From a virus, in the IMG/VR virus record IMGVR_UViG_3300020383_000010, positions 1 through 42,452 of that record: a stretch of DNA of 42,452 nt. The stretch is one strand, 5' to 3'. A program made the translations under genes and the position numbers. A model generated the notes under the pieces. The model did no database searches. It saw only the letters and a list, made by a program, of their open reading frames with translations, and was not told the DNA's origin. Positions 5,040 through 29,300 of the stretch are shown piece after piece; the stretch's first letter is position 1, and each line of letters opens with the position of its first letter.

Positions 5040-5101
5040 GGGCTCAAACTCCGAGACAGCAACGCCCCCGCTCGGGGGTCAATGCGCCGGGCTGAGCCGT
5101 T

Positions 5102-5136
5102 GCGTTATTGCGTTATATGACGCTAGCGTTATAGCG
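5102..5136. repeat. Bipartite repeat, site A (upstream of int)
   Basis: The stretch carries GCGTTATTGCG (5102-5112), then a 28-base copy (5109-5136) that matches site F at 25 of 28 positions, including the block ACGCTAGCGTTATAGCG. It sits between the int start and the preceding small gene. See the dispersed-repeat finding. Confidence 0.8.
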
Positions 5137-5138
5137 TT

Positions 5139-5351
5139 CTAATTAGTGATAGGGGTTACTCGATGCGCCGGAACGTAGCGAATGCGTGACTTATGCTCCA
5201 TATCCCTCCAATTCCGGTCACCAAACACCTTTAGCTTTAAGCGACCATCCGGCATTTCCTTCAAGACGTGACAACGCATGTGATAACGTTTCACCCATCG
5301 GCAGCAGTGATAACACTCTAGTAAGTGAGTAGCGTTTTCAGATGTCAGCAT
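5139..5351 (-). CDS. Small cysteine-containing protein, unknown
   Basis: This 70-aa protein has a Cys/His cluster near the N terminus (CYHCC, then HMRCH), consistent with a metal-binding or zinc-ribbon fold, followed by a basic beta-rich part (RLKLKVFGDRNWRDM). The ATG at 5351 is preceded by a good AGGAG site 6-7 bases away. It lies between repeat sites A and B, directly before int, the position where excisionases or other recombination directionality factors often lie, but no such homology is visible. The function is unknown. Confidence 0.6.
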   Translation of the reverse strand: MLTSENATHLLECYHCCRWVKRYHMRCHVLKEMPDGRLKLKVFGDRNWRDMEHKSRIRYVPAHRVTPITN

Positions 5352-5613: not shown

Positions 5614-5996
5614 AAGCCGTTACGCTCCCGCGTGCGATCTTTCAGCGCCTCTAACGCCCGCTCAATTCCTAGCAGCGCCTCAGCGTTGTAGCGGTTCGCA
5701 TGCGGCCCATCTTGAAACCGTTCAAGGCGATCAGCACACACCGCCAGCACCGCCTCCAACGTCACGCCATTGGGGCCAACCTCTTGCGGGTTGCCGTCCT
5801 GAAAGCTGATACACCCCAAAACCTGGGCACCGCCAGTCATCAATTCGCACTCAGCGCCCACACCAATGATGTAATGGTTCTGGGCGCCTCCTGGGGAGTA
5901 CGGCCCGTGAGCGATCACCGCTTGGCCCATGTCACCGCGACCGTTGCGGCTCACGGCATGCCCGGTCACTAACCGGGGCTGATTGAGACTAGGCAT
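5610..5996 (-). CDS. Acb2/Tad1 hairpin-domain protein, probable anti-defence sponge
   Basis: This 128-aa protein ends in a segment (about residues 66-128) with the pattern of the Acb2/Tad1 hairpin domain. The anchors are QDG-PQEVGPNGVT, LxxxxADRLERFQDGP, NxxALxxIERALEAL and a final RTRER. Acb2 and Tad1 bind and sequester the cyclic nucleotides that CBASS and Thoeris use to activate their effectors. The N-terminal half (SPGGAQNHYIIGVG) is not recognised and may be a second fold. The ATG at 5996 has a GGAGGTG site and overlaps the upstream gene by 8 bases. The domain call is from memory of the family pattern; ligand specificity is unknown. Confidence 0.65.
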   Translation of the reverse strand: MPSLNQPRLVTGHAVSRNGRGDMGQAVIAHGPYSPGGAQNHYIIGVGAECELMTGGAQVLGCISFQDGNPQEVGPNGVTLEAVLAVCADRLERFQDGPHANRYNAEALLGIERALEALKDRTRERNGL

Positions 5997-6645
5997 TAGC
6001 TGACACCTCCCGCTTATGCTCAATCGCCTTATTAGGGTCAGACGTTCGCCAGTCGGGCCAATCGCGCTGCTCATTCTTTGCCAGCTTACCGGCTAAAGCG
6101 CCAGCAATAGCGGCTGAACTATGGCCAGCGCGCCAAGCGCCATCGAAACCCAGCAGAACAATATCAATCCACTCGGAAATATCTTCCGGGGCAGCTGCCA
6201 CCTCGTCTAACTCTTTCTTGATATGGTCACTGATACCCTCGACGCGGGCGCCGGGTCCAAAGGCTTTAATCGAGAAAGCCCGCTGCCTATCAAGATGCGC
6301 CACCAAGTCATAAGCAAATGAACTGGCAGGCACCGCCCATAGCTGAAACGGCCCATCTTCCGTATCGTGAATAGAAAGCAGCACAGCATTATCACTAGGC
6401 GGTGCTAGCTCCCAGCTTGCAAAAGTGTTTTTAAGATTCACGTACTCTTCAAAAGCGGGCGTCCCTTCATCAACAGTATTTTCAAACGAAACATGCTCCA
6501 ACTTACAGCGGTGCGCCTTCTCGAAAAGGTCAATAAAGTATTTCGGGATGACCTCGCCATCACCAAGCGAGATACAAAACTGCTCCCACTCAGGGTGCGT
6601 AAAGCTACCATCCTTCTCTCTCACTACTTCAACGGCTTCTATCAT
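5989..6645 (-). CDS. dATP/dGTP pyrophosphohydrolase-like protein (DUF550, MazG-type fold)
   Basis: The 218-aa product carries a C-terminal module (about 133-212) typical of the DUF550/dATP-dGTP diphosphohydrolase family. Visible anchors are HIKKELDEV, a DISEWIDIVLLGFDGAWRAG core whose E and D residues would hold metal, and the basic RDWPDWRTSDPNKAIEH ending. These enzymes hydrolyse purine dNTPs to monophosphates. The first 130 residues are unrecognised. The ATG at 6645 follows AGGAGTTACGGCC; an upstream in-frame start at 6684 lacks a ribosome site. The gene opens a translationally coupled group (this gene, Acb2/Tad1-like, membrane protein) preceded by repeat site C, about 58 bases upstream. 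Confidence 0.75.
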   Translation of the reverse strand: MIEAVEVVREKDGSFTHPEWEQFCISLGDGEVIPKYFIDLFEKAHRCKLEHVSFENTVDEGTPAFEEYVNLKNTFASWELAPPSDNAVLLSIHDTEDGPFQLWAVPASSFAYDLVAHLDRQRAFSIKAFGPGARVEGISDHIKKELDEVAAAPEDISEWIDIVLLGFDGAWRAGHSSAAIAGALAGKLAKNEQRDWPDWRTSDPNKAIEHKREVSANA

Positions 6646-6702
6646 GGCCGTAACTCCTACTGTCGGTTTTGAATAGCGCGCCAACGCTCATTGCCATTTG
6701 CT

Positions 6703-6733
6703 GCGTTATAGCGTGCTAGCGTTATTTAACGCT
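6703..6733. repeat. Bipartite repeat, site C
   Basis: This 31-base copy is the exact reverse complement of site D at 11922-11952. It has GCGTTATAGCG, a TGCTA linker, and GCGTTATTTAACGC. It overlaps the last codons and the TAA of the 53-codon gene and precedes the pyrophosphohydrolase-like gene. Confidence 0.95.
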
Positions 6734-11422: not shown

Positions 11423-11949
11423 AAATCATGGATACCGACATCAACCGCGACTACTGGCGTAAGCTCGCCGCCCGCAACGGCATCAGCCGCGAACTATTTA
11501 GCGCCCGCGTCAAGCGCGGCCACAGCCTACGCCACGCCGCTACCGCGCCGCCTGCGCCCAAACACCGGCACGCGCTCGGCAAAACCAACCCGCTCAGCAA
11601 GCGACAAAAAAGCCTCGCCTACGGGCTGGATGAAGGCGCGCTCAGCCGCTACCGCCGCGACAACCCCGCCAGCACGCTCAGCGACCACGCCGCGCTGATC
11701 CTGCTACAAGCCCGCAAACATACCGTTCAAAAAACGCTGCGAGAACAGGCGATAGACGCCGGGCTAAGCCCCCAGCTGCTCTATAGCCGCCTCAGCAAAC
11801 AATGGCCGCTCGAAAAAGCGCTCAGCACCCCGCCCATGCCCACCAGCCACGCGGCCCGCATCGGCGGAAAAGCCCGCGCCCAGCAAAAGCGCGAACGCTA
11901 CCAGCAACGGCTCCAGCAGGCAGCGTTAAATAACGCTAGCACGCTATAA
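11419..11949 (+). CDS. Protein with repeated HTH-like (NUMOD-type) motifs
   Basis: This 176-aa, very basic protein contains three related helix-turn-helix-like units of the pattern (G)-I/L-S-x-x-L/T-x-x-R-x-x-x-G/W-x-L-x-x-A. They are ARNGISRELFSARVKRGHSL, GLDEGALSRYRRDNPAS and AGLSPQLLYSRLSKQWPLEKA. Such motifs occur as DNA-contacting NUMODs in homing endonucleases, but no nuclease domain is present here. The last residues (LNNASTL) and the stop are encoded by repeat site D. Probably a DNA-binding protein of unknown target. Confidence 0.6.
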   Translation: MKIMDTDINRDYWRKLAARNGISRELFSARVKRGHSLRHAATAPPAPKHRHALGKTNPLSKRQKSLAYGLDEGALSRYRRDNPASTLSDHAALILLQARKHTVQKTLREQAIDAGLSPQLLYSRLSKQWPLEKALSTPPMPTSHAARIGGKARAQQKRERYQQRLQQAALNNASTL

Positions 11950-11952
11950 CGC
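11922..11952. repeat. Bipartite repeat, site D
   Basis: The 31-base reference copy has box 1 GCGTTAAATAACGC, linker TAGCA, and box 2 CGCTATAACGC. It is the exact inverse of site C, 5.2 kb away. It supplies the stop codon of the upstream gene and ends 26 bases before the rdgC-like start. Confidence 0.95.
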
Positions 11953-11978: not shown

Positions 11979-13136
11979 ATGTGGTTTACCAACATCACCG
12001 TTTACCAGCTCCACAACGCCCAAGCGATCGACGCCCTCACCCTGCACGACATGCTGCAGGCCGAGGCCGCCAAACCCCTGGGCGACGCCGACGCCCGCCG
12101 CCACGGCTGGACACCCCCAGCAGGCCGCGCCAGCAACGCCTATTTGCACGAAAGCCAAGGCCACCGCCTGCTCAGCATGCTCAAACAGCAACGCATGCTG
12201 CCACCCAAAGTGGTGAAAGCAGCGGTAGAGGAAAAGGTCGCGGAAGTAGAAGCCAACGAAGGCCGCAAGGTCACGCGCAAAGAGAAAACCGCGTTCAAAG
12301 AACAGATCACCGAAGAGCTACTGCCCCGCGCCTTCATCGATAGCGTGAAAGTAGACGCATGGTGGGATGTCGAAAAAAACCGCATCACCATCAACAGCGG
12401 CAGCCGCGCCCGCTGCGAAGAGCTGTTAGACCTGCTACGGGAAACCCTGGGCAGCCTAAAAGCCACCCCGCTCAGCACCCAAACGTTACCCATCCGCGCC
12501 ATGACCGACTGGGTAGGCGACGCCAGCCAACGCCCCGCCAACCTGCAACTAGGCGACAAAGCCACGCTAAAAGCCAAAGGCGACGACGGCAAAATAGCCG
12601 CCACGCAAGTGGATCTCGACAGCGACGAAATACAGCAGCTACTCGAAAGCGGGCGGCAAGCCACCAACCTCGCCATCACCATCGATGACCGCGTGAGCGG
12701 CGTACTCACCGACACCCTACAGCTCAAAAGCCTGCGCTTTAGCGACCAGCTCATCGAGCAAGCCGACATGACCGAAACAAAGAGCGACGACGGCGACGAC
12801 GCCATCGCCCGACTGGAAAGCGACTTTTTCCTCATGGCCCACGCCCTAAGCGACACGCTGGATAGCCTCGTTCACATGCTGGGCGGTGAAACCATGCGTG
12901 AAGTAGCTGCCGAAACCAGCACCCGCCCCGACGACAGCCACCCCAGCGAACAGATCGGCGGCTTTGAAAAAGAAGAGCCGTTATTGAAAGAGGCCATCGA
13001 ACTAGCCAAAACGAACAACTGTGACACGTTCACGGTTACGAAATTGCAGCGGCATTTCAAAATTGCCTACGACCGTGCCCAGCAGCTGCAAGCGCTACTA
13101 GAAAACGCCAACCCTCGCGGGCTACCCAGCCCATGA
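11979..13136 (+). CDS. RdgC-like recombination protein fused to an FtsK-gamma-like domain
   Basis: This 385-aa protein begins with the RdgC fold (MWFTNITVYQL, then DWxxPAG-like HGWTPPAGRA, LLPRAFIDSV, AWWDVEKNRITINSGSRARC and LRFSDQLIEQA), covering about residues 1-300. RdgC is a ring-shaped dsDNA binder that limits RecA loading. The final 58 residues (about 328-385) match the FtsK gamma winged helix: EPLLKEAIELAKTNN, FTVTKLQRHFKI, AYDRAQQLQALLE. FtsK gamma reads KOPS sequences and activates XerD. A linker rich in S, D and P joins them. The fusion may tether RdgC to specific sites. The ATG at 11979 follows an AGGAAG site and repeat D. Confidence 0.85.
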   Translation: MWFTNITVYQLHNAQAIDALTLHDMLQAEAAKPLGDADARRHGWTPPAGRASNAYLHESQGHRLLSMLKQQRMLPPKVVKAAVEEKVAEVEANEGRKVTRKEKTAFKEQITEELLPRAFIDSVKVDAWWDVEKNRITINSGSRARCEELLDLLRETLGSLKATPLSTQTLPIRAMTDWVGDASQRPANLQLGDKATLKAKGDDGKIAATQVDLDSDEIQQLLESGRQATNLAITIDDRVSGVLTDTLQLKSLRFSDQLIEQADMTETKSDDGDDAIARLESDFFLMAHALSDTLDSLVHMLGGETMREVAAETSTRPDDSHPSEQIGGFEKEEPLLKEAIELAKTNNCDTFTVTKLQRHFKIAYDRAQQLQALLENANPRGLPSP

Positions 13137-13285
13137 ACACCGCCATCAACTACCGCTGCTACAACCCCAAATGCGACCAGGGCAACGCCCCCGGCTGGAT
13201 GCTAGGCGCTAACGCCATTTGCCCCAAGTGCGGCCACTGGCTCACGCGCCAGCCCAACGATAACGCCAGCGTTAAAAAACGCTAG
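13133..13285 (+). CDS. Small zinc-ribbon protein (50 aa)
   Basis: The start overlaps the rdgC-like stop (ATGA). The 50-aa product reads MNTAINYRCYNPKCDQ, then ICPKCGHWL, giving two C-x4-C/C-x2-C knuckles of a rubredoxin-like zinc ribbon, and ends in NASVKKR. Its TAG stop is supplied by repeat site E. Coupling to the rdgC-like gene suggests a shared job, but function is unknown. Confidence 0.65.
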   Translation: MNTAINYRCYNPKCDQGNAPGWMLGANAICPKCGHWLTRQPNDNASVKKR

Positions 13286-13298
13286 CACGCTATAACGC
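13268..13298. repeat. Bipartite repeat, site E
   Basis: This 31-base copy matches site D at 30 of 31 positions (AAATAAC becomes AAAAAAC in box 1). It overlaps the end of the small zinc-ribbon gene and lies 20 bases before the next start codon. Confidence 0.95.
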
Positions 13299-14949: not shown

Positions 14950-15395
14950 GGAAGGGACAAATCGTCACTACCTCACTGCCCATGCGCGGGCATGTTTGCC
15001 TGTCCGAAAATCGGACGCGCAAAAGCGACGACGAAAAACGTCGCCGCCCAAGCACCCGCATTAGCGCGTACGTTAAACGTACGCGCTACGCGACACCAAC
15101 CCAATCCATTGATTTTAAAAGCTTACACGAAATTCGTGCTACCGAAAAACAGACGCATCTTATTGATATCAATAGATTGTCCGAAATTCGGACAATCAAG
15201 ACACCAACGCAACCCATTGATAATAAAAGCGAGTACGAAATTCGTACTTGCTTAAACACACCCTTACGCCAACGTAATGCACCATTGACGCCTGCACACC
15301 CTAGCGCTACTCTCCCCGTGTCGCTGCAAAATCAGCGACCGGGTTTGGAAGCCCGAACTATATCCAGGCGCACAGCGCCCCGTTTCATCGTGTAG
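14946..15395 (+). CDS. Leader protein with EIRT peptide repeats upstream of the antirepressor
   Basis: This 149-aa, very basic protein contains three tandem 18-residue units (about residues 50-103) ending in HEIRA, SEIRT and YEIRT, plus an earlier SENRT. Each unit resembles the antirepressor's own LIDSNSLCEIRT. The last 30 residues (VSLQNQRPGLEARTISRR) are read from hairpins of the downstream leader. Protein function is doubtful: the DNA here is dominated by palindromes whose arms vary together. It sits where P1, P7 and N15 carry icd/ash-type frames before ant, and could be a translated leader or an Icd-like toxin. It is coupled upstream by ATGA. Confidence 0.5.
   Translation: MRKGQIVTTSLPMRGHVCLSENRTRKSDDEKRRRPSTRISAYVKRTRYATPTQSIDFKSLHEIRATEKQTHLIDINRLSEIRTIKTPTQPIDNKSEYEIRTCLNTPLRQRNAPLTPAHPSATLPVSLQNQRPGLEARTISRRTAPRFIV
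15002..15016. repeat. Inverted repeat GTCCGA-AAA-TCGGAC
   Basis: This 6-bp-arm hairpin lies in the leader frame (codons for S-E-N-R-T). It is the first and most divergent member of the CGAAATTCG-centred palindrome series. Confidence 0.6.
15063..15087. repeat. Perfect 11-bp-arm inverted repeat
   Basis: AGCGCGTACGT, loop TAA, ACGTACGCGCT. It lies just before the tandem 54-bp units. As RNA it would be a very stable hairpin; as DNA it is an odd-centred palindrome. Its core differs from the others. Confidence 0.8.
15093..15254 (+). repeat. Three tandem 54-bp repeats with covarying palindromes
   Basis: The units start at 15093, 15147 and 15201. ATTGAT recurs at 15108, 15162 and 15216, exactly 54 apart. 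Each unit ends in a palindrome centred on CGAAATTCG: CACGAAATTCGTG (15126-15138), GTCCGAAATTCGGAC inside 15175-15197, and GTACGAAATTCGTAC inside 15228-15252. The arm bases differ among units but stay complementary. A related stretch lies in the antirepressor gene at 15733-15765. Confidence 0.9.
15344..15368 (+). promoter_or_regulatory. Upstream copy of the C4 target sequence
   Basis: TTTGGAAG (15344-15351) and TATATCCAGG (15359-15368) repeat, in the same order, elements that lie over the antirepressor ribosome site. Both are complementary to the C4-like RNA at 15463-15482. Adjacent hairpins GTCGCTG/CAGCGAC and GGCG/CGCC flank it. Confidence 0.7.
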
Positions 15396-15551: not shown

Positions 15552-16334
15552 ATGTCGATACCCACCATTTCAGTTTCAGGCGTCACACTTCCCTATATCG
15601 AGTACCAGGGCACTCCAGTTGTCACCTTTGCGATGGTGAACGAAGCCCACAAGCGCGAATCTTCAACAGCGCGGCGTAACTTCCGAAACAACCGAAAGCA
15701 CTTTATAGAAGGTGAAGACTTCTATCTTATTGATTCTAATAGTTTGTGCGAAATTCGCACAAACTACCCCGGCCTGTTTCCCGATGCCATGAAGCGCGTA
15801 ACGCTCTTCACCGAAACCGGCTACCTCATGTTGGTCAAATCGTTTACCGACGACCTCGCATGGCAGGTACAGCGCCAGCTCGTCAAAAGCTATTTCCGCG
15901 TCAAAGGCGCGATGCAGCCCACCGCCGCCGAGCCCATCCCCGCGCCCATCGACCACCGCCAGCGCGAACAGCTCACCAACGCCGCTAACGCCGTGTTTCG
16001 CAATTTCGGCGGCATGCGCCAAAGCGCTACGGGCTGGTTTTATAACGGCGTACGCACCGACTACTGCCTAAAGCGCATCGAAGATCTAAGCCAAGACGAC
16101 TTCCCGGCAGTGATGAACCGCCTCCAAGCCCTACGCCCCAAGGTGCGCCAATACGAAGATTTTAGGTATGACTTTCAACAGTCGTTTTTAAAAGAGGTGG
16201 TAGGCGAAGGCCAGCCCTACACCGCATGGATCAGCAAGCTCGCCGGTGGCCAACACCACATCGGCCAGCGCCCCAACTGGAAAGCCATCGCCAAGCAAGT
16301 GCTAATCCATAACGGCCTACTCACCAAACAGTAA
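15552..16334 (+). CDS. ORF6N-domain antirepressor
   Basis: This 260-aa protein starts at an ATG with AGGAG 8 bases upstream. Residues 9-125 form an ORF6N DNA-binding domain: LPYIEYQGTPVVTFAMVNEA, ARRNFRNNRKHFIEGEDFYL, RVTLFTETGYLMLVKSFTDD, LAWQVQRQLVKSYFR. The C-terminal part (130-260) carries a KilA-C/Ant-like helical region. Such proteins bind phage repressors and relieve immunity. With CI non-cleavable, this is the likely induction route. Its translation would be blocked by the C4-like RNA upstream. An in-frame upstream extension to 15417 runs through the C4 RNA and is rejected. It ends before a terminator. Confidence 0.85.
   Translation: MSIPTISVSGVTLPYIEYQGTPVVTFAMVNEAHKRESSTARRNFRNNRKHFIEGEDFYLIDSNSLCEIRTNYPGLFPDAMKRVTLFTETGYLMLVKSFTDDLAWQVQRQLVKSYFRVKGAMQPTAAEPIPAPIDHRQREQLTNAANAVFRNFGGMRQSATGWFYNGVRTDYCLKRIEDLSQDDFPAVMNRLQALRPKVRQYEDFRYDFQQSFLKEVVGEGQPYTAWISKLAGGQHHIGQRPNWKAIAKQVLIHNGLLTKQ
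15741..15765. repeat. 12-bp-arm palindrome inside the antirepressor gene
   Basis: AGTTTGTGCGAA, centre A, TTCGCACAAACT: a perfect inverted repeat across codons S-L-C-E-I-R-T-N. It is the fourth relative of the CGAAATTCG palindromes in the upstream tandem repeats, with its own complementary arms. Confidence 0.9.
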
Positions 16335-16396: not shown

Positions 16397-16424
16397 AGCG
16401 TTAAATAACGCTAGCGTTATAGCG
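16397..16424. repeat. Bipartite repeat, site F (upstream side of parA promoter)
   Basis: Box 1 GCGTTAAATAACGC is followed by TA and box 2 in the flipped orientation (GCGTTATAGCG). It ends 7 bases before the -35 hexamer of the parA promoter. Confidence 0.95.
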
Positions 16425-16431
16425 TTTTATC

Positions 16432-16460
16432 TTGCACCCCTAGCGGCGCTTTTCTATACT
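16432..16460 (+). promoter_or_regulatory. Candidate promoter of the partition operon
   Basis: TTGCAC (16432-16437) and TATACT (16455-16460, five of six) are 17 bases apart. Repeat F ends just upstream and repeat G starts one base downstream of the -10, so the transcript would begin inside G. This is the layout of an autoregulated promoter. Confidence 0.7.
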
Positions 16461-16461
16461 A

Positions 16462-16515
16462 GCGTTATTGCGTGCTAGCGTTATTTAACGCTTTGACGCC
16501 AGAACGCAATAACGC
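16462..16515. repeat. Bipartite repeat, site G (operator side of parA promoter)
   Basis: At 16462-16492 is a 31-base copy that matches site C at 30 of 31 positions. A further inverted half CGCAATAACGC follows at 16505-16515, mirroring GCGTTATTGCG at 16462-16472. It covers the expected start and leader of the parA transcript. Confidence 0.95.
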
Positions 16516-16540: not shown

Positions 16541-17191
16541 ATGGGATACAAAATTGCCTTCGTGAGCCAAAAGGGCGGCGTCAGCAAAAGCACCCTAAGC
16601 CGGGCGCTGGGCACCACCTACGCCGCCGCTGGCTGGAATGTGAAAATAGCCGACCTCGACATTAACCAGTCCACCTCGTTTACGTGGCTGCAGCGCCGCC
16701 TCAAAAGTGGCGCATCGCCGGAAGTCGCGGTGGAAACCTTCGGCACGGTGGCCAGCGCCCTGAAAGTCGCCGACACCTACGACCTGATGATTTTCGACGG
16801 CGCACCTCACGCCACCAAAGCCACCGCCGAAGTCGCCCGGCTTGCGGATCTCGTCGTTCTGCCCACCGCGCTAAGCGTTGACGACCTTGAACCCACCGTA
16901 AGGCTGGCCAACACGCTGACCAGCAAAGAGGGCGTGCCCATCGACCGTATCGCTATTGCGCTGAGCAAAGTGGGCAAGAGTAAAACGCAGCTGCAGGATG
17001 CCCGCGCCTACCTCGCCCATACGCCCTATTTTGTACTCGATGGCCAAGTACCCGAGCGCGACGCGTTTGTTTTAGCCCAAGACAAGGGGCTGTCGATTGT
17101 TGAAACACCGTTCAAAGGCCCAAAGGCCCAAGCGGACGAACTGATCCAAAACATCATCAACCGCTTTGAATCACTCGTTCAGTCAGCGTGA
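16541..17191 (+). CDS. parA: ParA/ParF-type partition ATPase
   Basis: This 216-aa Walker ATPase opens MGYKIAFVSQKGGVSKST, with the deviant Walker A KGGVSKST at residues 11-18. ADLDINQSTSFTW (Walker A' Asp) and DLMIFDGAPHA (Walker B) follow. It lacks the N-terminal DNA-binding domain of the long ParA/SopA type, so it belongs to the short ParF-like type Ib class. It would position plasmid copies on the nucleoid. It is the first gene of the operon, flanked by repeats F, G and H, and followed by a ribbon-helix-helix partner. The ATG follows AAGGGG. The stop falls inside repeat H. Confidence 0.93.
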   Translation: MGYKIAFVSQKGGVSKSTLSRALGTTYAAAGWNVKIADLDINQSTSFTWLQRRLKSGASPEVAVETFGTVASALKVADTYDLMIFDGAPHATKATAEVARLADLVVLPTALSVDDLEPTVRLANTLTSKEGVPIDRIAIALSKVGKSKTQLQDARAYLAHTPYFVLDGQVPERDAFVLAQDKGLSIVETPFKGPKAQADELIQNIINRFESLVQSA

Positions 17192-17215
17192 AATAACGCT
17201 AGAACGCTAACACGC
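17185..17215. repeat. Bipartite repeat, site H (between parA and parG-like)
   Basis: This 31-base copy matches site D at 27 of 31 positions (AGCGTGAAATAACGC, linker TAGAA, then CGCTAACACGC). It supplies the TGA of parA and ends 13 bases before the next start. Confidence 0.85.
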
Positions 17216-24888: not shown

Positions 24889-26364
24889 TTAACCCCATAG
24901 TGTGAGTGATACCCGGTTGCGCGACGCGTCCACTTCGCGCCCCACCACCAGCAGGTTGCGCCCGGCGGTGTACCCTAGCCGGGGTGTAACCACGCGAACC
25001 GTTTGTTGAATCTGCAAACCGCCTGCATCCACCACGCGGGCGACCACCGTTAGCCGGTCGCGCCGGGGGGATAGCAGCGCCAGCACATCGTTGGCCGTGG
25101 TTTGGGCGTGGCTGCGGCTAGCAAGGTCGCTGGCCACCGTTACGGCATCTGCCAGCGGGTGGCGTGCAAGCGTGGCGGCTGAGACGGCCACCGCATCCCG
25201 GTAGGGGTTGGCCAACCGGGCGCGGCGGGATTCCGTCACCGCCCCGGCAAGATCCGCTTGCACGGTTTCGATACGGTCGGCTTGCCATGTCACGCGACCC
25301 ACCGGCAAGCCGTTACTGCCTGCCCCTACTGAGTCGCGGTCGATGGTGATTATCTGGTGGTCGTTGAGCGTGAGAACAGGCGCACCGGGCGGCGTTAATA
25401 GCCCGGCTACCAGCGCTTGACCGCCGGTAATGCGGTAGAACCCCGCACACGACGCAATCAAACGATCTAACAGCTCGGCGGTGGTGGTTTCTTCCGTCAG
25501 CCATAGCCGCACCGCGCCCCGGCTATTGAGCGCCCCGGCACTCTCCAGCGTTACCCCGGCCTCACTGGCAATGTGCGCCACCACATCACCCGCGTTTACC
25601 GCCGGGGCGTTGGCGTCACACGTGAGCTGGCCAGTGGGGGCCACCCCTACGCGGATATACCCCTGATAGCGCCGCCACTTGCCGCGTGGTGGCTCCCAAT
25701 CGCTCCATTCACCCGCGTCGGGGGCCACGCTTTGCAGCTCGGCTAGCGAGGCGTAATCACCGTCAAATGTCAGCGGTATGCCGTTGTCGTATACCGCCGT
25801 AACGGTGCAGGGCTGATCGCTCGCTTGGTAAATCAGCGTTGACGTATTCACCGCCACGGGCTGGGCATTGCGCACCTGCCCGTAAACGCGGGGTTTGATG
25901 TTGCCGCCTATATCGTCGTCGGTGCCCTCTACACCGTTGGGGGCTACGTTGGTGCCCGCATAGCGGGCTTGGGGGTGGGGCTGCTGCAGGATCTCCACCG
26001 GGTCGCGCAACTTGATCGACACCAGCGCATTACTAAACGACACGCGGCCCACGGTGCCCTCCAGCACCGTGGTTATGCCGCTTTCATCGGCATATTGCAG
26101 CGTGGCTTGGCGGCCATCGGTGGCGTAGTCCACCAGCCAATCTAGCCCGCCGTCGATGTTGATAAGCGTGGTTTCGCCGTAGCCGCTGCGGTCGACGTTT
26201 ATTAGCTCCCCCGCAAACAAACCAGCCCGGTATAAACCGGGCTGTTTAATGCGTGGCATCCATGCCACGGGGGCCGGGTCCATGTACCCCGGCGTGCTAA
26301 ATCGCAGTGTTTTGGGGTTCCCCTCGCTATCGAGCGCTTCGACCGTTAACAACCAATAGCTCAT
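24889..26364 (-). CDS. Tail hub-like minor tail protein
   Basis: This 491-aa protein follows the tape measure by a 4-base overlap, where siphophages keep their tail-tip hub. Visible features are an N-terminal SYWLLTVEALDSEGNPKTLR, a barrel-like INIDGGLDWLVDYATDGRQA, and a later VTWQADRIETVQADLAGAV. It would attach to the tape measure's end, open the tip and hold the fibre complex. The exact family (gp27-like or gpL/gpJ-like) was not determined. Confidence 0.75.
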   Translation of the reverse strand: MSYWLLTVEALDSEGNPKTLRFSTPGYMDPAPVAWMPRIKQPGLYRAGLFAGELINVDRSGYGETTLINIDGGLDWLVDYATDGRQATLQYADESGITTVLEGTVGRVSFSNALVSIKLRDPVEILQQPHPQARYAGTNVAPNGVEGTDDDIGGNIKPRVYGQVRNAQPVAVNTSTLIYQASDQPCTVTAVYDNGIPLTFDGDYASLAELQSVAPDAGEWSDWEPPRGKWRRYQGYIRVGVAPTGQLTCDANAPAVNAGDVVAHIASEAGVTLESAGALNSRGAVRLWLTEETTTAELLDRLIASCAGFYRITGGQALVAGLLTPPGAPVLTLNDHQIITIDRDSVGAGSNGLPVGRVTWQADRIETVQADLAGAVTESRRARLANPYRDAVAVSAATLARHPLADAVTVASDLASRSHAQTTANDVLALLSPRRDRLTVVARVVDAGGLQIQQTVRVVTPRLGYTAGRNLLVVGREVDASRNRVSLTLWG

Positions 26365-29300
26365 CGTGACGCCTCCAGGCGGGCCGCTGCGCTCATATCA
26401 TCGAGTGCCAAGTTGCTCTTTTTCAGCTCGCTAATTTGCTGCTTGGCCGCCTCCTGCTGAACGGCCACACCCGCCGCGCCGTGCTGCTCAATCCTCTTGA
26501 GTAGCGCGGTTAGCTCTTTACGTAGGGTTTTGTTTTCGTTCAGCAGGTCGCGCACCAGGTCTTGCTGATCGTTGCGGTTGAGGAGCGGGAAGTTGGGCAG
26601 TGCAGGCATGGGCAGCTCACGGCTCGGCAACTCGCGCAACCGGCCTGCCGTTTGCGCGGGCACGACCATTTCATCCCGGTGAAGCTCTGCGATGTAGTTA
26701 TCAAACGGCACGTTCCAAAGCCCTGTCGCGTGGCTGCCGTTCACAAAAAACGAATTAGGCGAGTATTGGTGGCCAGCCACCTCTTTCTCCCAATCCCCAA
26801 TTTGGGACTCTCGAAGCATCGTCGCCGCCCGGTGCAAGATGTAGTCCCGCGCATCACTCGACAGGTTTTGATTATTTAGAACGTTGTCTCTAATGCGCTG
26901 CCAGTCCTCTTGATCCATAGCCCCCGTAGAGCCCTGGGCCGCATTGTTTGTGACAAACCGGTCATACACCGCTTGCTGCTGAGCGCTGAGTTGATCACTT
27001 GCACGGGCGATAATGCCTGCGCTTTTTTCGATCTCGCTCATCAACCATTGGGCACTCGACTGCCGAGCGCTGAAGTATTGCAGCTGGGCAATTTCGTCCT
27101 GTGTTTCCTCCATCCTTCTCAGCGTGCCGTCGAGAGACACAATGCTTTGATTTAATGCCACAAACTGGCCGGTCGAACGGGTCATTTCCGAGACTAACCC
27201 GCCCAGCTCCTGCAACTGGTCGCGGGCGCGTTCTTCCAGGTTTTGCGTGTTGCCTTCGGTGCCCTCGCTGCTGCGGTTGAGCGCCTCAAGGCGGCTAATG
27301 GTGCCACTGCCGTCCTTGTCCAGCTGCCGGAAGATCCGGCGTAACTCGGCATCACTGGCCAGCCCTTGAAACGCGCCATAGAACTCGTCCCAATCAATCA
27401 GACCACTGGCGTCTAAGTCGATGCTGTCGAACATCGGTTTCAGCGTGCTGCCGATGCCGCTGGCCAGCCCCGCTAAGCGCTGGTTGGCCAGCTCTTGCTT
27501 GGTGATAATGCCGTCACCGTTTACGTCCACCTCACGAATGAGGCGGCTAATTTCGGCATCGGTGGCGATGGGGGATAACGCACCACGCACCTGAGCCACG
27601 GTCAGCTGGCGAGCATCCAACTCGCTCAGTTTGTTACGCAGAACCGTACCCAATACCGCATCGGTCGGCATGCCCGCGATGATGACGCTCTCTAAGCCGT
27701 CCATCACGCCGTCACCGTTAAGGTCTACCGCCCGCATAATCGCTTGCAGCTCGGCATCGGTGGCCTTGCCGCTCATCACGATAGCGAGCTGATCACGGGT
27801 TAGCACGCCGTCGATACCGCCCGCCAGGGTGGTGAAGAAGCCCGCCAAATTGCCCGCTATGTTGCTGGGGTTATCGCCGCGCAACACATCACTAAGTTGG
27901 CCGCTAATACCTTGGGTTTGCTCGCGTAGTGCCTGTTTCACCTCCTCAGCTATGTACTCTTCGGCGCTTATCTGATCGGGCAGATCCTTCAACGCATCCA
28001 ACACATCGCCCTGAATGCGCTGGAACGCGCCACCGCTGGCGTACATCGCTTCACCCGCTGCCAAGTATTGCTCGGCGTATTGGGTAATGCTCTGTAGCGC
28101 GTTGCGGTCGCCTGATTGAGCAAGCACCAGCTGTCGGGCGAACTGGTCGCCCGCTTCGGCTAGGTTCATGCCGGGGGTGCCAGCAGTTGCGGTTTGCTGG
28201 TCTACCCACTGGCTAATGCCGTTAAACGTGCTGCTCAGCTGGTCATTTACCTGGGCGAGCGAACGGGCGTACTCCTGCCCCGCCTGCGTGGCCGCTTGCT
28301 GGGCGGCGGCTTCATCCTCCATGGCCCAAATGCGCCGCTGGGTTTCCTGTAGCAGCGGGTCGATGCCCTGCAGCTCTCGCTCACGCTGCAGCGCTAACGC
28401 GGCTTGCTCGTCGCCCAGCAGGCCCAAGAGCTGCAGCTGCTGGTCAAACGACTGCTTTTCAAACGCGGCGTAGGCGTTGCGCACCTCGTTTTCTAGCGTG
28501 CTGATCTCGCCGTTTAGCTGACTGAGGCGGTCGGCAAATACGTCTACGCCGTTGCCGGTTTGCTCTAGCAGGGTTTGCAGCTGGTCGAACGGGCCTGCCA
28601 GCTGCAGCAGCTGCACATAGTTACGCTGGCCAGATTCGGTTAAGCGGTTTTGCTGCTCGACTAGCTGCCGGAAACCCTCATGGGTAGACGGCAGCGCTAG
28701 GCCCATTTCACGCAGGCTGGCGGCAACGTCCTGCTGCAGATCGGCGGCGCGCTCGGCATCGCTGAAAAACGCCGTGTAATAGCTATCCTGCAGGCTGGCG
28801 AGCTGACCCACGCCGCCGGCCATTTGCGCGATGCTGTCAGCGGCGCGCAATGCGCCAGCGGCTGAGGCGTCAAACTGCAGGTTGAGGCGATCACTTGCCC
28901 CGCTCAGCAGATCCAACGCGGCCACCGCGCCTTGGGTGCGGGCGATAATGGTATCTACATCGGTTCCAAGGCTGGCGACGAACTCGCCAAACTCGCCATC
29001 CATGGCACTGACAGCGGCCACGGTGCGGCGGCTAAGCTGCGATACCACGCCCTCCACATTCGACGCACTCAGACGCACGCCCTGCACCGCCTCGGCCATG
29101 GCTTGCAGCTCTTGCGGGCTACGCGCCAGCGAGGCTAGCAGGTCGTCACTGGCGGCAATCGCGGCCAGGAACTCGCGCTCTTCGGGGATGCCTCCAAACA
29201 GGTCGTTACTGCGGCGGGTGCCTTGAGCAAAGCCCACCGCACCAAACGCCCCTTCTCGCACGGACCCATGCCCGTAGGAGTTATTAGCGCGGGTATCGAT

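Follow-up and report, generated by a model that had tools for sequence, protein, structure and literature searches.

The 42,452-nucleotide stretch of viral DNA analysed here (an IMG/VR virus record, hereafter the window) carries a gene in which an RdgC protein continues, in a single open reading frame, into a C-terminal domain homologous to the gamma domain of FtsK. We read the product as an RdgC clamp on DNA whose docking domain is exchangeable and descends from host FtsK; in the window this domain would have been retargeted or be decaying, and we place the probability of this reading at about one half. Such tails are widespread on phage RdgC, and phages trade them as cassettes.

The genes of the window include a lambda-type portal, a ClpP-like protease, an E-type capsid and tail genes, along with an S24 repressor, a tyrosine integrase and a ParA/RHH pair. 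A complete circular plasmid of Halomonas qaidamensis (NZ_CP080628.1, 45.9 kb) runs collinear with the window, which therefore most probably belongs to the phage-plasmids of Halomonas or of one of its relatives; since the terminase gene at the end of the window is represented by the C-terminal part only, some of the element's sequence is missing from it. The Halomonas plasmid encodes an RdgC-gamma protein 70% identical to that of the window, but the plasmid's tail keeps the N, R and E discussed below and a GHIPNPYG end. A consensus search for sigma-70 promoters between 9300 and 17800 gave none, and no PADLOC defence model was found in the window. The parts of the fusion gene and its downstream neighbor are as follows.

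11979..13136 (+): rdgC-gamma fusion gene, a single ORF of 385 amino acids
11979..12890 (+): RdgC domain, residues 1-304 (Pfam PF04381, E=1.2e-84; model TM 0.94 to 2owl)
12891..12968 (+): linker, residues 305-330, of low model confidence, carrying HPxEQIGGF, common to the Halomonas group
12969..13106 (+): FtsK-gamma-type tri-helical domain, residues 331-376, with a truncated wing
12969..13136 (+): exchanged cassette, 97-98% nucleotide identity to the relatives L004 and L005
13071..13094 (+): D365, Q369 and A372, which align with N1296, R1300 and E1303 of E. coli FtsK (roles from PMC2680272 and PMC5052618)
13133..13285 (+): ORF for a 50-aa zinc-ribbon-like protein, overlapping the rdgC stop by 4 nt (ATGA) and conserved in the group

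The initial annotation had matched the N-terminal 300 or so residues to RdgC and the C terminus to FtsK gamma, and both assignments hold. The RdgC profile is matched over its full length (1-298 of 298), the NCBIfam model NF001464 scores 303 bits against a cutoff of 227, and the RdgC part of an AlphaFold monomer model, with pLDDT mostly above 90, superimposes on E. coli RdgC (2owl_A) with an rmsd of 1.8. RdgC of E. coli (2OWL) and P. aeruginosa (2OWY) and HrdC of P1 share fold and full-length sequence family with the window protein, but 2OWL and 2OWY end near residue 303-306, whereas the window protein has about 80 residues more, and these include the gamma-type domain. Between the two domains pLDDT falls below 50 at residues 309-330. 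No AAA+ motor domain was found in the ORF by Pfam; the weak Pfam names SLT_beta, TIP49_C and GcnA_N were all below cutoff, and we put them down to chance.

The identity of the tail is weak when the window copy is taken alone and is secure through its relatives. The isolated last 80 residues match Pfam FtsK_gamma weakly (26 bits, E=7.5e-6, with a Pfam cutoff of 30.6), and the single sequence reaches only E=0.3 against the FtsK-gamma entries of the PDB. Close and distant relatives lie well over the Pfam cutoff (for example at 86 bits), and a profile of 74 aligned fusions matches FtsK gamma in the PDB at E=4e-31 and RdgC at E=4e-132. FtsK_gamma is detected in 74 of these 74 fusions, a count that is partly so by construction because they were retrieved mostly by a motif inside gamma; scans with the RdgC part only found the gamma tail again. 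When the window tail was modelled alone (AlphaFold, pLDDT 68), the best 13 Foldseek matches were all FtsK gamma, with probabilities of 0.85-1.0, and included chains of 2ve9, 2ve8, 2j5p and 5dcf. Its predicted helices span residues 336-345, 353-360 and 364-377. The wing sequence is truncated and the model has no wing strands after helix 3, so the term "winged helix" that was first applied to this tail does not suit the window copy. It shares with FtsK gamma (2VE8, 2VE9, 2J5P, 5DCF) the tri-helical core, a QR-x-F-K-I-x-Y motif and, as seen through its relatives, the sequence profile, and differs in that the protein is without a motor, the counterparts of N1296, R1300 and E1303 are replaced and the wing is truncated.

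These replacements bear on what the tail might recognise. The E. coli FtsK substitutions R1300A and E1303A impair KOPS recognition, and FtsK[R1300A,E1303A,E1306A] is KOPS-blind but still supports XerCD recombination (PMC2680272). The window has Q and A at the first two of these positions and E at that of E1306; since the wing is lost as well, the window tail is predicted to be KOPS-blind. N, R and E are all kept in most relatives (38 of 55 gamma-selected and 27 of 49 RdgC-selected), the others having W or H at 1300. In the RdgC-selected set, all 49 matched sequences retain N1296 and nearly all retain E1303, and 46 of the 49 have QR at 1288-1289. Neither the number nor the strand bias of KOPS in the window departs from chance (6 sites against 6.36 expected, strands 4:2), one-mismatch variants show no convincing polarity, and no 7-8-mer that could be an alternative target of the tail is over-represented above about z=3. 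KOPS loading, which had been suggested for this protein, is thus unsupported for the window copy.

XerD contacts in FtsK gamma are Q1288, R1289, R1292, I1293, G1294 and N1296, and the nine residues RQFRIGYNR suffice (PMC5052618). At the six positions the window has Q, R, K, I, A and D, so that three are kept, one is conservatively replaced and two are changed, and its counterpart of the nine residues reads RHFKIAYDR. Q1288 and R1289 lie outside the retrieval motif and are invariant in all 55 aligned tails, that of the window included. The XerD surface of the window tail thus appears only partly kept. A search of the window for a dif-like site with no more than three mismatches found none, and matches to the XerD arm were at chance. 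With N1296 replaced by D365 and no dif-like site, the XerD activation or multimer resolution originally proposed finds no support in the window protein, even though it retains three of the contacts (Q1288, R1289 and I1293) and has a conservative K for R1292.

Such a fusion is not unique to the window, and it is not chiefly a plasmid trait. Among GenBank records with an RdgC match, 69 of 291 from phages and 83 of 1213 from plasmids align over at least 80% of it; about 200 IMG/VR contigs carry a confirmed fusion, and two scans with the RdgC part gave 27 of 80 and 30 of 80 fused loci. Fusions are located in blocks of recombination genes that encode SSB, Bet, ERF or exonucleases. Host chromosomal RdgC was without gamma in all four genomes examined; the Serratia and Janthinobacterium genomes have a fused copy beside unfused RdgC and FtsK, and the two others have the unfused copy only. 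The initial annotation knew of no description of the fusion. In our literature search, too, no paper described an RdgC and FtsK-gamma fusion, and none mentioned RdgC and FtsK gamma together. Such fusions are common all the same, and of the objection that they might prove both common and already characterised only the first half holds. To our knowledge, no phage RdgC-gamma has been studied experimentally. Closest among published cases are the Bacillus phages Sam46 and Sam112, whose small terminase is fused to FtsK_gamma (PMC8190038); there too a phage DNA-handling protein has captured the domain, but the partner is another protein, gamma is N-terminal and its DNA-binding residues are conserved.

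On two Pseudomonas plasmids (L010, NZ_MK569690.1, 8949-9179; L016, NZ_CP096947.1, 5904-6155) we came upon short genes named "DNA translocase FtsK". They cover no more than the C-terminal tail, the RdgC-gamma ORF itself being intact, and we flag the names as misannotations of RdgC C-termini.

Comparison of the window with its close relatives shows that the tail is exchanged as a unit. Compared with L004 and L005, most 60-nt blocks of the window's RdgC part show 57-83% identity, while its tail reaches 97-98%. With L002 and L003, identity is mostly 88-100% over the RdgC part, save for a few blocks of L003 that score lower, and drops to 48-72% in the tail. Identity switches at two points, the linker with its common HPxEQIGGF and the stop codon, beyond which lies the conserved 50-aa zinc-ribbon ORF. 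On a wider scale, a quick tree of 129 RdgC domains shows 23 changes of fusion state, with gain and loss not told apart, and at least 15 of these changes are forced by starred branches. Near-identical RdgC bodies differ in fusion state, and such pairs (L008, fused, and L115, unfused; L076 and L158) are natural tail-plus and tail-minus comparisons.

The tail also occurs on a second protein. NA37/YejK, a nucleoid protein, is encoded next to rdgC in Pseudomonas-type phages, and in four of them (L116, L121, L128/L059 and L152) RdgC is untailed and the downstream NA37/YejK bears the FtsK gamma. These fusions resemble that of the window in operon position and in having a gamma tail, but their tail is on NA37, not RdgC. 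No gamma domain was found elsewhere in 47 unfused records. Within the Pseudomonas-type group RdgC-gamma was in no case found together with NA37 (0 of 26 against 20 of 50; Fisher p=6e-5, relatedness ignored). At the end of some gamma-less NA37 genes are sequences such as MNADGSREVLS and REVIRHG that look like remnants of the domain, and this suggests that deletion within an rdgC-NA37-gamma arrangement gave rise to some of the fusions. The gamma of the L116 NA37 is about 87% identical, as counted by eye, to that of P. aeruginosa FtsK, pointing to capture from host FtsK. To us the more surprising facts of this analysis are that the tail is mobile and that it can switch to NA37; a recurrent, exchangeable gamma tail on both RdgC and NA37 points to a link of phage recombination and nucleoid proteins with the host segregation machinery.

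These findings are consistent with the following mechanism. E. coli RdgC is established as a DNA-encircling dimeric ring that restrains RecA (literature summarised in PMC11077077). The phage RdgC would likewise be a DNA-encircling dimer, bearing a C-terminal helix-turn-helix ultimately from host FtsK gamma, and the RdgC part would do the main job, clamping the phage-plasmid DNA and restraining recombination, presumably through RecA. The tail would be a docking module that a phage attaches to a single nucleoid-type DNA binder, in most cases RdgC and in some the neighboring NA37/YejK, and from the modularity of the domains we infer that it tethers its bearer to whatever target it recognises. No binding target of the tail was found, which counts against this reading. 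The tails of most relatives could have retained recognition of the targets of FtsK gamma, namely KOPS DNA and the XerD surface; the cassette of the window would be blind to KOPS and have either acquired a new target or begun to lose its function.

The alternative that survives best, possible though on the unlikely side, is that the tail is a decaying, functionless remnant and the protein an ordinary phage RdgC. Having lost triad residues, several contact residues and the wing, the window tail may indeed be vestigial; many phages thrive with unfused RdgC, and the NA37 ends quoted above resemble what is left of a lost gamma. However, the cassette is intact, in frame and nearly identical in three phages with differing RdgC bodies, which argues against simple decay and mildly favours function, and the tail helices are predicted to be intact.

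The docking reading can be taken further, to a proposal that we offer tentatively and consider unlikely as a whole: temperate phages and phage-plasmids may use the host-FtsK-derived domain as a mobile address tag on one binder at a time (RdgC or NA37/YejK), which would direct that binder to KOPS DNA or to XerD, thereby interfering with the host's chromosome segregation or dimer resolution; cassettes like that of the window would have evolved a new target.

TLC-phi encodes XafT, a phage Xer activator, and this precedent speaks for another explanation, that the tail is a KOPS-blind dock for host XerD, which it either recruits or blocks. The XerCD activity of the KOPS-blind FtsK triple mutant (PMC2680272) fits it too, as do the invariant Q1288 and R1289 and the likeness of RHFKIAYDR to the sufficient peptide (PMC5052618). 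We nevertheless doubt it strongly, since N1296D sets an acid opposite E119 of XerD, G1294A alters another contact, the window is without a dif-like site, the element encodes its own tyrosine integrase and the same residues contact DNA too.

Very unlikely, in our judgement, is the original suggestion that gamma reads KOPS and loads the RdgC ring at polar sites, activates XerD for multimer resolution, or both. Homology to FtsK gamma and the retention of N1296, E1303 and QR in relatives are in its favor, and many other fusion phages have strongly polar KOPS (e.g. 15:0, 1:17 and 13:0). The window, in contrast, has D/Q/A at the triad and a truncated wing, with no KOPS enrichment, KOPS polarity or dif-like site. 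Nor is the polarity of the other fusion phages specific: the reversed control pattern differs as well (p=0.0017 vs 0.006) with a comparable excess, the difference between fused and unfused Pseudomonas-type phages is not significant (p=0.17), the groups share descent and unfused relatives are polar, so that we draw nothing from it about loading.

As an observation in its own right, KOPS (GGGNAGGG) lies nearly all on one strand in fusion phages such as G008, G014, W02 and W04. Because it is frequent in unfused relatives too, this probably reflects general host adaptation or gene orientation.

A 31-bp repeat, AGCGTTAAATAACGCTAGCACGCTATAACGC, is scattered through the window, usually just upstream of a gene, and its copies are the following.

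11922..11952 (+): just upstream of rdgC
13268..13298 (+): end of the zinc-ribbon ORF and just beyond
6703-6733 (-), 16397-16515 and 17185-17215 (+): further copies
5094-5140 (-): partial copy

It is conserved in all Halomonas-group relatives (L002-L005, L007 and L024). That the tail binds these repeats as a loading site is highly improbable: copies do flank rdgC and its partner ORF, and the repeat is conserved throughout that group, but the copies are grouped around parA and the RHH protein gene, a better fit to a partition centromere, and they are present in relatives with other gamma cassettes and absent from more distant fusions. The repeats are likely a partition centromere or operator, akin to the dispersed sites of N15.

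Three further observations concern other parts of these elements. On the Halomonas plasmid L007, reverse transcriptase and four-helix-bundle genes adjoin the tail genes (25638-27319), a region that looks like a diversity-generating retroelement; such genes, sought by name, were not found in the window. The window has a second repeat family at 15001-15249 and 15724-15762, made up of short palindromes around CGAAATTCG, with three copies at 54-bp spacing. Finally, a dATP/dGTP pyrophosphohydrolase domain (PF04447, E=1.9e-23) is encoded at 5989-6684 (-), suggesting that nucleotide pools are altered or that a base is modified.
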